A program made the position numbers and the translations under genes. Below, one piece after another: positions 3,457 to 30,134 of a DNA stretch of 30,559 bases. The notes under the pieces are model-generated. The model had not been told where the DNA came from and searched no databases. It was given only the letters and a program-made list of their open reading frames with translations. Source of the stretch: a virus; IMG/VR virus record IMGVR_UViG_3300033144_001010, positions 1 through 30,559 of that record, one strand, 5' to 3'. The stretch's first letter is position 1. Each line of letters starts with the position of its first letter.

Positions 3457-4035
3457 ATGGCACAAAAACAAAAGCATTTAGGGCCGATAGAAAGCCTTAC
3501 AGAAGACATGGCGGCAAAGTTAATAAGTAGAATCATCGTTAAGGACGGTGGTTTATTCCTCGCCGGTAAAGGCGGTGGTAAGCTGGAAGTTCTAGCACAG
3601 GGCAATGAAGGCCCTGAAGGTAGGCGTGGCCCTCGTGGTTACGCTGGTGAAATGGGTTCAATAGGTTTAACAGGCGACGCTGGCCCAATAGGGCCTCGTG
3701 GCACGAAAGGAGAAACAGGCAATGAAGGTAAACAAGGACAAGCAGGGCAAAGGGGACCGCAGGGCGAAGCGGGCAAAGATGCGAAGGGAGAACGAGGGAT
3801 TCCTGGTGCGAGCGGTGAAGCAGGTGAAAGAGGTAGAACAGGAGATAAAGGATGTGCAGGCAGTCAAGGTCCCAAAGGCGAAAGAGGCATCCAAGGTGAA
3901 ACCGGTCAAGCGGGCAAAGACGGAAAAAGTATTAAAGGCCCCCAAGGTGAAAAAGGCGAAAAAGGCGAAACAGGAATAGCACCAGCAGAGCTTTTATCAA
4001 TAATTAACAGACTAAAAGTATTGGAGGCAAAATAA
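3457..4035 (+). CDS. Collagen-like Gly-X-Y repeat protein
   Basis: A 192-residue protein with an N-terminal helical cap (about 1-48), a Gly-X-Y region from G49 to G173, and a C-terminal heptad-like segment (PAELLSIINRLKVLEAK) suited to trimerise the collagen helix. Glycine is at every third residue except for two breaks of the same type: GKDAKG (106-111) and GKSIKG (156-161). The Y positions are rich in charged residues and not in proline, as in other bacterial and phage collagens that lack prolyl hydroxylation. There is one cysteine at 133. Phage collagens usually sit in tail fibres; here the gene lies between terminase and portal, so a head fibre or surface decoration is possible. Confidence 0.9.
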   Translation: MAQKQKHLGPIESLTEDMAAKLISRIIVKDGGLFLAGKGGGKLEVLAQGNEGPEGRRGPRGYAGEMGSIGLTGDAGPIGPRGTKGETGNEGKQGQAGQRGPQGEAGKDAKGERGIPGASGEAGERGRTGDKGCAGSQGPKGERGIQGETGQAGKDGKSIKGPQGEKGEKGETGIAPAELLSIINRLKVLEAK

Positions 4036-25250: not shown

Positions 25251-26039
25251 CTAAACTATTTTAATTTCTTTTCCATTGGGGAGAATAGCCCTACCCTTAT
25301 TTATTGGCACTGAATACATAGTAAAATCATGTACCCCTACATAAGCCACCCAAAAGCCGTGTGTCCATCCTGTTGGGTTTCCGTCATGTTTATACATAGG
25401 CATTCTTTTACACAAGCAGCCGGCACACATAGCCGTCGTAGGCATATCTGACGCTGGATATGTAAGCGTATCAGACTGCATCCGGTGTGCGTGGTTGAAT
25501 ATCACTGATTGCAATGGGCTTTTCCGCCTATGGGCTGCAGCACAGTGTATGCTATACGACCAGCCATGAACACAGATTAGCTTGTCGTGTAATCGAATAG
25601 GGGTGCCTTGGTCAACGTATATAAAGTTCTTCCTATTCTCACTAAGATTAACTTTAGGGGAGATTAGATTAAATACCGAAATAGCACCACTGCCATGCGT
25701 AGCCGCCCATCGTTCGATATGCGCATCGTGGTTGCCCTCTTGAAAATATGTAGATTTAGTATACTTTTGAACCTCGTCAATAAACTTATTGGCTGGGTCA
25801 AGCTCTGTTGTTTTAAAGTCTAAAGCTATGGCTTCCTTGATAGTCTGGTTGCCGAACTTAGAGAAGGGGGTAGCTTGCAATAGATCATTTCCAATTATAA
25901 CATTGTCAGGCTTGAACTCTCTCTGCGCCGCCATTGCCACCGCCACGGCCTCTTCATCGTGGTCGGGAATATGCATATCGGGATAGCCCATCCATCTCAC
26001 GGCTTTACTCTTGCATCTGTGCGTTATTTCGGTTTTCAT
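25251..26039 (-). CDS. Calcineurin-like metallophosphoesterase
   Basis: 262 residues with the binuclear-metal motif series in order: D21/H23 (PDMHIPDHD), GND at 50-52 (usual GDxxD/E), GNHD at 102-105 (EGNHDAHIER), VHGW at 157-160, and NHAHR at 182-186 (usual GHTH). The enzyme hydrolyses phosphomonoesters or diesters, often of nucleic acids, in phages. AAAGGAT precedes the start, and the gene overlaps the 3' end of the RNA ligase gene by 35 bases, so both proteins are made together. This pairing suggests RNA end-healing, for example removal of 2',3'-cyclic or 3'-phosphate before ligation (inference). Confidence 0.87.
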   Translation of the reverse strand: MKTEITHRCKSKAVRWMGYPDMHIPDHDEEAVAVAMAAQREFKPDNVIIGNDLLQATPFSKFGNQTIKEAIALDFKTTELDPANKFIDEVQKYTKSTYFQEGNHDAHIERWAATHGSGAISVFNLISPKVNLSENRKNFIYVDQGTPIRLHDKLICVHGWSYSIHCAAAHRRKSPLQSVIFNHAHRMQSDTLTYPASDMPTTAMCAGCLCKRMPMYKHDGNPTGWTHGFWVAYVGVHDFTMYSVPINKGRAILPNGKEIKIV

Positions 26040-26970
26040 TTACAATCCTTTCTTGGAATAAGTCTGGCATGACATCTTTAATCTTAGCCGTAACCATCTT
26101 ATGTAATCGCTTATAGTTTACAATCGGATACTTGTACTGCTTAACGAAGTTCCAGCTTTCCTCTACCACTAGGTCGTGATAAACACAGCCAAGTAATCTT
26201 GGTATAAACTTACTAGACCAGCCACCTTCTGTCAACACTATTTTTGCGCGGGTTTTTTCTATCAAGGCTTTAGTGCAATATTTAGCTACAATATGTGTCT
26301 CAACTTCAATCCTTGCAGACTTTTCCGTTGGCCCCATAGTCTTTGTGTGTTTCTCTTTAAATTCAGATGTGACTATCTTGGCCCATGTAGTTCTACCGTA
26401 TTTGTTTTTATACTGGTAGTTCTTTATCACAATGCCTTCGCCCGCACCCTTGCCGTCTTCGATAAGAAAATTATTACCTTCTAAGCATTTCAAAAAAGCC
26501 TCATAATTACCATTGTCATATTTCGCTATACACGGAATATAATCTAATCCGAAGTCTTCCATTAGTGGTTGATATTCTTCATATGTCAGGTACTCAAACT
26601 TCTCACCGGATGGCAATTCTTCTGGCAAAACTCTTGTTACGTCAAACACATAGAACTTACGCCACGTATCGTCTCGATAGGTCCTCAGGCTGTGCGGTAC
26701 AAGCCATTCGCCAAATAGCCGCAAATTAGGGTGAACCAGAAAGAAATCTTTCAGTGCCCGATTTCCAGCCAGATCATGGTAGAAGCCTGCGTTGTCATAT
26801 TTCTTAGTCAGCCTTCTTTTCCTACTACCAAACCTAACACCGTGATTAGTAAGCCAAGCACTTCCATTTGTGCCATCTATCTTGGGGAAAACATAACACG
26901 TCCCAAATTCTATTCCGTCAACCTCCATCGTGCCAAATCTTTCAATATGCTGATATTTCTTAAATTCCAT
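26005..26970 (-). CDS. RNA ligase, Rnl2-like nucleotidyltransferase
   Basis: I start at ATG 26970, six bases after AAGGA; an in-frame TTG two codons upstream is too close. The 321-residue protein has the nucleotidyltransferase motifs: motif I PKIDGTN with adenylated K30, motif III LFGEWLVP (85-92), then FYVFDV (106-111), motif IV EGIVIKNY (178-185) and motif V WAKIV (196-200). A helical C-terminal domain follows. This matches T4 Rnl2-type ATP-dependent RNA ligases that seal nicks in duplex RNA or broken tRNA. It is encoded immediately before the metallophosphoesterase. Confidence 0.9.
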   Translation of the reverse strand: MEFKKYQHIERFGTMEVDGIEFGTCYVFPKIDGTNGSAWLTNHGVRFGSRKRRLTKKYDNAGFYHDLAGNRALKDFFLVHPNLRLFGEWLVPHSLRTYRDDTWRKFYVFDVTRVLPEELPSGEKFEYLTYEEYQPLMEDFGLDYIPCIAKYDNGNYEAFLKCLEGNNFLIEDGKGAGEGIVIKNYQYKNKYGRTTWAKIVTSEFKEKHTKTMGPTEKSARIEVETHIVAKYCTKALIEKTRAKIVLTEGGWSSKFIPRLLGCVYHDLVVEESWNFVKQYKYPIVNYKRLHKMVTAKIKDVMPDLFQERIVNENRNNAQMQE

Positions 26971-27109
26971 CTTCAATCCTTTTCAATAATCCTTCACGTA
27001 ATTTATTGTAACATTCCTGGCATGGATACCTATTCTTGTCCCAGCTTATATCCACAATGCCTCGCTTTCCGCAAGTGCCGAGCCAGACGTATTTCTTTAA
27101 GGGTTTCAT
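26960..27109 (-). CDS. Small cysteine-containing protein (49 aa)
   Basis: Starts in an ATGA overlap with the end of the upstream gene and overlaps the RNA ligase start by eleven bases. The product starts MKPLKKYVWLGTCGKRGIVD and continues with a CxxC (YPCQECYNKL). With C13, C30 and C33 it looks like an incomplete small zinc-binding fold. Its tail encodes the ribosome binding site of the ligase gene, so at minimum it couples ligase translation. Function unknown. Confidence 0.6.
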   Translation of the reverse strand: MKPLKKYVWLGTCGKRGIVDISWDKNRYPCQECYNKLREGLLKRIEDGI

Positions 27110-27534
27110 TTATATCTCAATCCCTGTAACATAGAGCCCACCTCGAACTCCGCTTGCTCGCCTGTAGTGCTAATTACTACACTACAGGGAGAGGACTCAA
27201 CCTCGGCCAGAACACCGCTAGAAAGATGGTCCTCTGGAGCATAGGCCACAAGACCATCGCATTCTGATGATACTTTAAGCCACCATGAAACGATTCTATC
27301 ACCTGGAATACCGTCCAGATAGGCCTCTCGGATAATAATCTCATGCTCGTGCGGGACTATCCATGTAACCTGAGGGAACTTGCCACGAAGCCACCCTGCG
27401 ACCTGTAGAGCCGTGGTGATATTCAAGTCCATATCTGCTAATGATGCCCTATCGCCCAACCTACCCCTGACGGCGGCTGCAAAGTAGACGCATGTTACGT
27501 CTGGGTCATTTAGTGCTTTAATTAGATCTCTCAT
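27106..27534 (-). CDS. Nucleoside deoxyribosyltransferase-like (DUF4406-type) protein
   Basis: 142 residues with AAAGGAAG upstream. The fold pattern is Rossmann-like as in nucleoside 2-deoxyribosyltransferase relatives: VTCVYFAAAVRGRLGDRASL, then a helix with 'N...A..vA..L', then WIVPHEHEIIIREAYL, and a CDGLVAYAP strand followed by SSGVLAEVESS (the 'D.v.....pS.G...E...a' site where Glu is catalytic in the family). It would act on nucleosides, nucleotides or related ligands. The exact substrate cannot be inferred. Confidence 0.65.
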   Translation of the reverse strand: MRDLIKALNDPDVTCVYFAAAVRGRLGDRASLADMDLNITTALQVAGWLRGKFPQVTWIVPHEHEIIIREAYLDGIPGDRIVSWWLKVSSECDGLVAYAPEDHLSSGVLAEVESSPCSVVISTTGEQAEFEVGSMLQGLRYK

Positions 27535-27626: not shown

Positions 27627-27782
27627 TTACTTGTGCATAGGTTTAAGGTCTATCCCAAACATTTTCTTAAACAAATCTATTGGCTCGTCCCACTTATGCC
27701 CGCATACACAATAGTCTGTTCCTTTTATTCTTTGTGTGTGGCATTTCGGGCAATACTCGGTTTCTGTTTCTTCTTCATTCAT
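27627..27782 (-). CDS. Zinc-ribbon small protein (51 aa)
   Basis: The start overlaps the stop of the dNMP kinase gene by eight bases. The product has a clean zinc ribbon: C11xxC14 (EYCPKCHTQR) and C25xC27xH29 (YCVCGHKW), then a short helical tail (PIDLFKKMFGIDLKPMHK). Such proteins are common in phage accessory operons and may bind nucleic acid or protein. A second ATG at 27778 is out of frame. Confidence 0.7.
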   Translation of the reverse strand: MNEEETETEYCPKCHTQRIKGTDYCVCGHKWDEPIDLFKKMFGIDLKPMHK

Positions 27783-28407
27783 TTAGCCAGCCCCTTTCGT
27801 TAATAAGCTTCCATATGGCTTCGTTCTGTTGCTCTATTGTCATTTCTCGGTTGTCTAAGACTGCGTCAAACAGTGTCATTTCAGGGAAATCCTTGTCTGG
27901 GTGAGCTAATACATTTCCTGTGTCGTATTCTATTGCATCCAACGCAGTTTCAGACTCATGTTGGTCATCGTGCGGATTCCTGAGCAAGCGTATTACGTGG
28001 CCACCTAATTCCTGTATACACTTTACTTCGTTTGGGAAGCGGACGTCTGAAGTAATAATCAATCCCTCATCGAATGAGCCTTCTGATATATCGTCAAAGC
28101 CGTCTTTGAGTTTCTTGACACCCACTTTATAGGCATTTACCCAACAATCTGGGTCAAGAGAGCGAAACCAATCTGTACCGACAATTTGTAAGACCTCTCG
28201 ACTGGTTTTGCCACATGCGAGAATCTTATTTTTATCCTCATCGCTTCCCTGTAAATTCTTGTGTGTAGCGCCAAAACAATGCCCAACAATCTTCTTCAAA
28301 TCATCGGCAAAGTTTATTTGGACGCAGGCGCAACTTCGCTTTTCGATATCATTGCCCGCCGTAGTCTTGCCGCTCTGTTTCTTGCCACTAAATGCTATTA
28401 TTTTCAT
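27775..28407 (-). CDS. Deoxynucleoside monophosphate kinase
   Basis: 210 residues with AGGAG upstream. P-loop GKKQSGKT at 8-15, then the lid and NMP-binding pattern of phage dNMP kinases: INFADDLKKIVGHCFG, TSREVLQIVGTDWFRSLDPD followed by W, and the ITSDVRFPNEVKCIQELGG block, diagnostic for the phage family, then VIRLLRNP. It phosphorylates dNMPs to dNDPs to feed phage DNA synthesis from degraded host DNA. It is the main nucleotide-metabolism gene of this strand. Confidence 0.88.
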   Translation of the reverse strand: MKIIAFSGKKQSGKTTAGNDIEKRSCACVQINFADDLKKIVGHCFGATHKNLQGSDEDKNKILACGKTSREVLQIVGTDWFRSLDPDCWVNAYKVGVKKLKDGFDDISEGSFDEGLIITSDVRFPNEVKCIQELGGHVIRLLRNPHDDQHESETALDAIEYDTGNVLAHPDKDFPEMTLFDAVLDNREMTIEQQNEAIWKLINERGWLNE

Positions 28408-28453: not shown

Positions 28454-28984
28454 TTACGAGGCACTGCCTTGCCTTTTTGCAAAATAAACTCCCGCAACCA
28501 CGTGAAACTGGTCTGGCCGAATTTCATTACTAAAACTAAAGCACTCAAGCCATGTCCCAAAACCAACGCACCCCGCGGAAACAACATTTGCGACAGTTCT
28601 CGTACACCAGTCTTTCTTCTTCGATGGTTTCCATATTTTCCATTTACTTATGTGGCAAAGCTGACTAATGAGTGCATACGGAGTGCCTTCCAACCTCTTG
28701 GCCTCAAGGTAAGCCATGTCTTCTTCTTCCCGCGTCATCAGTACGTTTATAGTGTCCCATCGTTCAGAACCATGACTATACCCTATTTGCTTGAACCTCG
28801 CGCATTTCACGTCATCCTGCATTGTATTTGAAAAGCTTATATGATTGTATAGGGATGAAAATTGAAATTCAGTATGCACCTGCGGGCTTGATCTGATAGC
28901 GATAAGCCTGTTAATCCATGTTGGTTTCTTACCAAAAATCTGTGCTTTTTTGTAATTATAACTTCTTATTTTGCAACAATCCAT
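28454..28984 (-). CDS. Permuted NlpC/P60-like cysteine hydrolase
   Basis: I choose ATG 28984, which has AAGGGAAG upstream, over an in-frame GTG at 29005. The 176-residue product has a circularly permuted papain-like order: catalytic His in VHTEFQF (H37, E39), then RWDTINVLMTREEEDMAYLE, then EGTPYALISQLC and the catalytic Cys in KKDWCTRTVANVV (C127). Related proteins are amidases or peptidases. It could be a lysis enzyme, but it lacks a recognisable wall-binding domain and a signal peptide, so substrate and role are open. Confidence 0.7.
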   Translation of the reverse strand: MDCCKIRSYNYKKAQIFGKKPTWINRLIAIRSSPQVHTEFQFSSLYNHISFSNTMQDDVKCARFKQIGYSHGSERWDTINVLMTREEEDMAYLEAKRLEGTPYALISQLCHISKWKIWKPSKKKDWCTRTVANVVSAGCVGFGTWLECFSFSNEIRPDQFHVVAGVYFAKRQGSAS

Positions 28985-28985
28985 T

Positions 28986-29141
28986 CTATTCTTCCCTTTC
29001 TTCACATACTTCGTCCCATAAATTAAGTTTTAGGCATTCCAATGCGCCTATTACTTCGCCATAAGTTAAGTCGTATTCCCTGCGGAAGTAATCTATTTTA
29101 AGCTGTAAAGCATCTATTAGCCTTGCCGTAGATTCGACCAT
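28986..29141 (-). CDS. Small conserved-type phage protein (51 aa)
   Basis: ATG at 29141, with AAGGCGG upstream inside the end of the previous gene. The product is helical and acidic: ARLIDALQLKIDYFRREYDL, then TYGEVIGALECLKLNLWDEV. This 'eydLtygEviGaLe.lKl.L' pattern is familiar from small phage accessory proteins of unknown function. Its stop is one base from the next start. Confidence 0.6.
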   Translation of the reverse strand: MVESTARLIDALQLKIDYFRREYDLTYGEVIGALECLKLNLWDEVCEEREE

Positions 29142-29500: not shown

Positions 29501-29932
29501 TTATTTATCTAACATTCGTTTACGCTTCTGATAAGCTGCCGTCAACGCCGCAACCAGAGCTATCCAATACGAAGGCTGTTTGCTCTTTTCTTTGATCGTC
29601 GCCACTGCACCGTTAGCCTCATTGTAAGTCTCAATAATCCCTGTAACGATGTTCTCGACCTGATTAGGGTCTTGCTTGAGCAATTCAGCTACCACAGCCA
29701 GCTGGTTCGGGTCTAAGTCTTTGATGATGCCTTCTGCTGTGGCCTTGATAGCAATAAGCCTGTCATTAGTCTCGTTTGCATCTGCTATCGTCTCATTAAG
29801 CTTCTCTGTTGTATTCTTTGCAAGGGTTACGCCAGTCTCTAAGCCTCCCAGAAAATATCCCACGCTTTCGGCTGAGCCACATCCAGCTACCACACAGATA
29901 GCTACAATCATTGTAATGTATAATGCTTTCAT
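29501..29932 (-). CDS. Lipoprotein with C-terminal membrane segment, u-spanin candidate
   Basis: AAAGGAAAG lies upstream of the start. The 143-residue product has a type II signal peptide with lipobox VAGC (Cys18, followed by GS, which favours outer-membrane sorting). A helical periplasmic region (about 40-115) follows, with repeated 'DPNQ..' and Asn-rich coils. A short C-terminal hydrophobic segment (YWIALVAALTAAY, about 122-134) is closed by KRKR, which orients the end to the cytoplasm. Lipid anchor plus C-terminal membrane helix is the topology of unimolecular spanins such as T1 gp11, which fuse inner and outer membranes at lysis. The membrane segment is rather short. Confidence 0.7.
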   Translation of the reverse strand: MKALYITMIVAICVVAGCGSAESVGYFLGGLETGVTLAKNTTEKLNETIADANETNDRLIAIKATAEGIIKDLDPNQLAVVAELLKQDPNQVENIVTGIIETYNEANGAVATIKEKSKQPSYWIALVAALTAAYQKRKRMLDK

Positions 29933-29997: not shown

Positions 29998-30134
29998 GAC
30001 GTGGGTGAGATTCGAACTCACGTACCCATATTTTCAAAGACCCTTACAATTGATCAAGTCTTCTATTTTCCGGTTCTTTCTAGGATTCATATCCATGGTA
30101 AATCCTAGGCAATAGGCCTCTATGCAACCACGTC
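29998..30134 (-). tRNA. tRNA-like element with aberrant anticodon and variable region (possible pseudo-tRNA)
   Basis: Read on the - strand: GACGTGG (30134-30128) pairs perfectly with CCACGTC (30004-29998) as a seven-base acceptor stem. It is followed by TT and a canonical D-arm with A14, G18G19 and A21. Near the 3' end is a perfect T-arm GTGAG-TTCGAAT-CTCAC. Between them is TAGGA/TCCTA (extendable to an eight-base stem) with a 17-base instead of 7-base loop, starting TTTAC with U33 in place. A 59-base variable region then contains its own hairpin. Total length is 137 against about 75. It is either a decayed or inserted tRNA, or a tRNA-like RNA. Confidence 0.6.

Follow-up and report, generated by a model that had tools for sequence, protein, structure and literature searches.

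The question raised by this locus is whether an RNA ligase and a metallophosphoesterase (MPE) whose genes overlap form one RNA-repair pathway or are separate genes that happen to be neighbours. How phages repair RNA in the face of tRNA-cutting defences is under active study, and gene overlap or adjacency is often read as a shared pathway. The locus lies in a 30,559-base virus record, the whole of which was analysed and is called the window here; profile matches identify a gpA-type terminase, a head-tail adaptor, a major head protein and tail genes. Both genes are on the minus strand. The Rnl2-family ATP-dependent RNA ligase (26005..26970, 321 aa), recognised by PF09414, PHROG 548, its motifs and a structure model, is followed by a PHROG 221 MPE of 262 aa (25251..26039), which has an ATG start and retains its metal-ligand motifs. 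The 3′ end of the first overlaps the 5′ end of the second by 35 nt (26005..26039), just as an earlier sequence-only reading had described. That reading had taken the pair for a split version of bacterial Pnkp. They are likely to be independent accessory genes in a tailed phage, a Rnl2-type ligase and an MPE phosphodiesterase, standing side by side by recent mosaic exchange. Both belong to known families and are ordinary phage genes; the junction between them is informative, and the signal in their adjacency is weak.

The ligase has an ATG start at 26970, giving 321 aa, or a TTG start, giving 323 aa. Further upstream on the same strand are a 142-aa ORF (27106..27534), which by eye resembles a nucleoside deoxyribosyltransferase and has no convincing match in the Pfam and PHROG libraries, and a deoxynucleoside monophosphate (dNMP) kinase (27775..28407; PF21448, PHROG 139). 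A tRNA-like element had also been placed in this block, and neither ARAGORN nor Rfam finds one: ARAGORN reports no tRNA or tmRNA in the whole 30,559-nt window, Rfam has zero matches in the window at gathering score, and at a relaxed threshold (E 10) the sole trace between 24400 and 30559 is a sub-threshold 18-base tmRNA scrap (30005-30022). Between 24900 and 28600, predicted promoters are equal to chance (9 vs 7.9), and predicted terminators are in slight excess (5 vs 2.7).

The ligase matches Pfam RNA_ligase (PF09414) at 1.3e-16 and the RNA ligase profile of PHROG 548 at 2e-45. Eighteen aligned ligases share the invariant residues K30-x-D32-G33, R50, E88, F109, E178-G-x-x-x-K183 and K198, which make up nucleotidyltransferase motifs I (KxDG), III, IIIa, IV and V. 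The best match of its AlphaFold model (mean pLDDT 82.8, pTM 0.60) is T4 Rnl2 (Foldseek, 2hvr, E 7e-14); the model aligns with 2hvq (VIA) at Z 17.9, with an rmsd of 2.7 over 196 residues, and a profile built from the 18 ligases finds T4 Rnl2 among the PDB sequences at 2.8e-5. Profiles, invariant motifs and structural match agree, and the protein is a Rnl2-family enzyme, as had been proposed. After residue 223 the model is helical, and its alignment with one full-length Rnl2 chain spans 278 residues, though at an rmsd of 9.5 Å. Identity to T4 Rnl2 is about 20% in the structural alignment; unlike T4 Rnl2, the window ligase belongs to the phage and prophage clade of PHROG 548, with relatives in viral and bacterial genome contigs. 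Membership of this family suggests that the enzyme seals RNA nicks: AMP would be loaded on Lys30, and nicks with 3′-OH and 5′-phosphate ends would then be closed. Its most plausible substrates would be tRNAs on which the cut of a host defence nuclease leaves ends of this kind or, alternatively, ends healed by another enzyme not seen in the 30.6-kb record. The ligase is probably a stand-alone RNA-sealing enzyme with an anti-defence role.

The MPE matches the metallo-phosphoesterase profile of PHROG 221 at 5e-23 over most of its length. No MPE model in Pfam matches it, NCBIfam gives just a sub-threshold YfcE model (0.05), and a phmmer search of the PDB returned nothing informative. Among 19 aligned relatives, the presumed metal ligands D21, H23, D52, N103, H104, H183 and H185 are invariant and H158 is nearly so; these residues and the profile match bear out the assignment of a phosphoesterase gene. 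The aligned relatives share the metal-site motifs and a C-terminal HGF motif with the window MPE. Its known kin are PHROG 221 phage MPEs, such as gp29 of Verrucomicrobia phage P8625, the protein of locus L131, the zinc-ribbon MPE of locus L115 and the protein related to it in Cronobacter phage Dev-CD-23823; the PHROG 221 profile is common to the proteins of the window, L115 and L131. The window MPE and two close relatives have Asn or His before D52 and Asn before H183, where P8625 has Gly, and they lack the N-terminal extension of the P8625 protein.

The structure model of the MPE (pLDDT 84.2, pTM 0.86) has the PolD DP1 exonuclease and Mre11/SbcD as its top Foldseek matches (E 6e-7 to 2e-6), and aligns with 6t8h (VIA) at Z 15.1, with an rmsd of 3.5 over 211 residues; the MPE sequence profile has no significant match to Mre11 (E 0.2 and above). 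Since it is the fold and the metal site that the model and alignment establish, any statement about the substrate is conditional. Judged by its modelled fold, the MPE probably serves DNA or nucleotide metabolism as a nuclease-like phosphodiesterase; it would use two metals and have DNA or nucleotides as its substrate, working alongside the dNMP kinase. The nearness of this fold to PolD DP1 and Mre11/SbcD nucleases would also suit a nuclease used in counter-defence or host takeover, as mycobacteriophage Gp48 is, in which case both genes would occupy a common cargo spot for unrelated anti-defence genes. There is a precedent for a phage MPE directed against host defence: Li et al. 2025 (PMC12287305) describe Gp48 of A10ZJ24 as an MPE that is active as a phosphodiesterase, damages the integrity of host DNA and is required to overcome host defence. 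The likeness to Gp48 drawn here is one of described function, and the fold does not fix the substrate, with LpxH, YfcE and Vps29 (Z 12-13) within about 3 Z units of the top match. Such a role for the MPE is unlikely, and a phosphodiesterase of DNA or nucleotide metabolism is preferred.

Bacterial Pnkp resembles the window in having both an MPE-fold phosphatase and an RNA ligase. It differs in being a single chain with a kinase, and its phosphatase and ligase domains align poorly with the window proteins. With a Pnkp from a Hymenobacter genome (L303; TIGR04075, 1397 bits) as the yardstick, hhalign aligns the Pnkp phosphatase with the MPE profile over 78 columns at a probability of 53, while a true MPE relative, that of L115, used as positive control, aligns over 190 columns at a probability of 97. 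Where the Pnkp phosphatase has the motif GDxxDRG, the window MPE has NDLLQ. The Pnkp ligase domain aligns with the window ligase profile over 20 columns at a probability of 9.6. Pnkp phosphatase is not among the PDB fold-list matches of the MPE, a list that is not evidence of absence. Pfam detects no kinase domain in either protein, and the polynucleotide kinase (PNK) profile has no match in the 30.6-kb window; the record may be a partial genome, in which case a kinase may lie elsewhere. The likeness to a split Pnkp is therefore not borne out by the profile comparisons or by the gene content of the window.

A functional analogue of Pnkp made of two genes is a separate proposal: the MPE would heal 2′,3′-cyclic or 3′-phosphate ends and the ligase would seal them, reversing the damage done by anticodon nucleases. 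For phage ligases, Iyer et al. 2021 (PMC7824862) already suggest PNK, RlaP and phosphatases of the HAD, calcineurin-like and HD types as partners; this counts in favour of the proposal, as does the adjacency of ligase and MPE in the window, L115 and L131. If the anticodon-nuclease cut leaves a 5′-OH, a 5′ kinase is required, and the window has none; the match of the MPE to the Pnkp phosphatase domain is only partial; and co-occurrence of the two genes, treated below, is not conserved. In locus L129 the ligase has a PNK directly downstream and a PHROG 221 MPE 5.8 kb away; this MPE is no stand-in for a kinase-phosphatase, because a PNK is already beside the ligase. Taken with this evidence, a healing and sealing pair is quite improbable. 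A search of the PMC collection found no paper that treats metallophosphoesterase, RNA ligase, phage and RNA repair together.

The closest relatives of each protein bear directly on co-occurrence. The nearest MPEs, the sole close ones found in IMG/VR, are those of L026 (80%) and L027 (79%), where a dNMP kinase lies nearby upstream of the MPE; in L027 a DUF1937/PHROG 355 gene separates the two. No RNA_ligase family match is found over 46.9 kb of L026 or 45.9 kb of L027, and a direct protein search is also empty. In P8625, where no ligase was found, the MPE and dNMP kinase genes overlap. L002 is the structurally closest phage record found, with a tail protein 53-64% identical to that of the window; its ligase is 61% identical and is followed by a DnaD-like helicase loader, and it has no PHROG 221 gene. 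L027 resembles the window in its terminase (35%) and, in pieces, its tail protein (37-50%); neither a window-like terminase nor a window-like tail protein was found in L026. Since L002 has the ligase without the MPE and L027 the MPE without the ligase, the window unites two states that are found apart in its kin. Conserved co-occurrence, which the sequence-only reading had itself named as its test, thus turns out mostly negative.

The survey of ligase neighbours covered 135 loci: 89 from IMG/VR, 44 genome contigs, one named phage and the window. The IMG/VR set joins the best 80 of 235 relatives with 25 from a first scan, giving 89 distinct loci; a length or profile filter excluded 2 of the 46 genome-collection loci, and L029, L031 and L032, which repeat L013, the window and L011, were removed. 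Since some near-duplicates remain (L021/L022 and L122/L124 look alike, and L128/L217 are probably the same contig), what is counted is loci rather than independent events. The window and two other loci have an MPE as the immediate neighbour of the ligase, each from a different MPE subfamily. In L115, a contig of 4.3 kb, it lies downstream of the ligase with a 1-nt overlap and has no BLASTP match to the window MPE; in L131 it lies 193 nt upstream and is 25% identical. The MPE profile is also matched in the examined flanks of L166, L129 and L011, 4.4 to 7.4 kb from the ligase, bringing the non-window cases to five, and in none of the 46 genome-collection loci. Whole-record searches were made in 75 of the 89 IMG/VR ligase records for PHROG 221 and in 48 for PNK; PHROG 221 is present in 10 of the 75 (7/50 and 3/25), and two of the eight strong cases have the MPE adjacent to the ligase.

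The window, having been picked for its adjacency, was left out of the adjacency statistics. In two of the five remaining cases the MPE lies less than 200 nt from the ligase and on its strand, where 0.12 cases would be expected; P is 0.005 when the expectation is halved for strand, and without that halving the expectation doubles. Since phage genes often share a strand, this halving is too generous and the true P is weaker. A pairing in which MPEs are repeatedly recruited as the healing partner is unlikely in spite of the excess. It would be a considerable surprise if, on at least three separate occasions (window, L115 and L131), PHROG 221 MPEs had been recruited beside Rnl2 ligases to replace the HAD phosphatase of PNKP in RNA 3′-end healing.

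The recurrent partners of the ligase are RNA-repair genes, namely PNK, RlaP-like nucleotidyltransferases and RtcB, and not this MPE. Of the 135 loci, 11 have a PNK, always at most 980 nt from the ligase, and so do 6 of 48 whole ligase records, in loci where it is linked. The window thus differs from the T4-type PNKP and Rnl system, whose PNK gene is linked to the ligase in those 11 other loci. Nucleotidyltransferases lie less than 1 kb from the ligase in seven loci: L028, with an RlaP Pfam match, and L122 with five relatives, which are PHROG 388 like that of L028 where tested. The closest relative of the ligase (70%, L001) has RtcB 375 nt away. Most ligase loci have no RNA-repair partner in the flanks examined. 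Phage loci with PNKP and Rnl, with or without RlaP, are exemplified by MW202692 (L028), whose ligase is of the same family and 33% identical; its RlaP, ligase and PNKP genes overlap in a row, and the window has none of these partners. Of the proposed RNA-repair pair, then, the ligase half stands, being of the Rnl2 family with kin that adjoin RNA-repair genes, and the pairing itself falls on co-occurrence, the Pnkp profiles and the junction.

Several of these neighbourhoods have features of their own. The overlapping RlaP nucleotidyltransferase, Rnl2-like ligase and PNKP of MW202692 (L028:4318-6817) make up a compact RNA-repair operon. In L001:5747-8281, the ligase is followed by an RtcB-type tRNA splicing ligase (PHROG 1075), so that two RNA ligase classes stand side by side. 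Four kinases from the PNK profile set, adjoining or near a Rnl2 ligase, apparently carry a C-terminal HD rather than a HAD phosphatase (L136:11202-12131, L122:11630-12709, L137:10920-11813 and L118:11890-12822); the HD match is by Pfam in L122 (8.7e-6) and was judged from the alignment in the other three. The survey thereby shows PNKP, kinase-HD proteins, RlaP-like nucleotidyltransferases and RtcB as recurrent partners of the ligase in related phages.

The dNMP kinase is a more constant neighbour of the window MPE than the ligase is. In a control set of 80 loci fetched by dNMP kinase, 11 include an MPE at a distance of 605-1976 nt, and none has the ligase; two of the 11 are L026 and L027 again, and the other nine fall into three clusters at 50% identity. 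The density of MPEs is 11.2 per Mb in these loci vs 3.7 per Mb around the IMG/VR ligases. In L098, which was in the search alignment, the MPE and dNMP kinase genes overlap as they do in P8625. Since an amidase, identified by eye, intervenes between MPE and dNMP kinase in L280 and L294, this link may itself be positional. Many MPEs elsewhere adjoin lysis-type or other phage genes, as judged by eye, which marks the MPE as an accessory gene that is mobile. For the zinc-ribbon MPE of L115, relatives are present in 635 named phage records; that of Cronobacter phage Dev-CD-23823 lies by endonuclease VII and an exonuclease, and L222, the one close IMG/VR relative of the L115 protein, has no ligase in the flanks examined. 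In a PinkBerry phage, this MPE follows DnaB and an unrelated 235-aa gene, and the order in L115 is DnaB, ligase, MPE; this ligase, too, has the look of an insertion into a replication block.

The junction in the window is marked by the MPE leader and by an out-of-frame ligase tail. The conserved part of the ligase ends at residue 305, near which most aligned ligases stop, and the window frame runs 16 codons further through CCAAGAAAGGATTGTAAATG; this tail (residues 306-321) is the ribosome-binding leader of the MPE and its first codons. The 13-nt leader, CCAAGAAAGGATT (26044..26056, minus strand), contains the ribosome-binding site and lies inside the ligase frame. The window and the examined stretch of L027 each contain a single copy, directly before the MPE start, and L026 does not share it. 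L027 thus has the same leader without a ligase, and a different upstream gene there overlaps the MPE by 23 nt, so an overlap at this place is not evidence of coupling to the ligase. Each of the two window genes has its own AAAGGA-type leader a few nucleotides before its ATG, and translational coupling is therefore not needed. This arrangement suggests that the two genes were joined recently: the ligase gene would have been placed directly upstream of an existing MPE gene and have lost its own stop, so that its frame now extends over the first 35 nt of the MPE gene. The overlap would then be a by-product and not the mark of a two-enzyme operon. Adjacency that can be traced to a junction scar is a useful caution where overlap is taken to mean a shared pathway.

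Three other ORFs of the window are worth recording. A 183-aa ORF (28454-29005) without a library match may have, by eye, a permuted papain-like (NlpC/P60-type) His...Cys arrangement. The 143-aa ORF at 29501-29932, which has a lipoprotein-like N terminus and a coiled-coil-like body and only weak PHROG matches to families of unknown function, is possibly a spanin-type lysis protein, again by eye. Amid the head and packaging genes, a 192-aa ORF (3457-4035) matches collagen-like and tail-fibre PHROGs.
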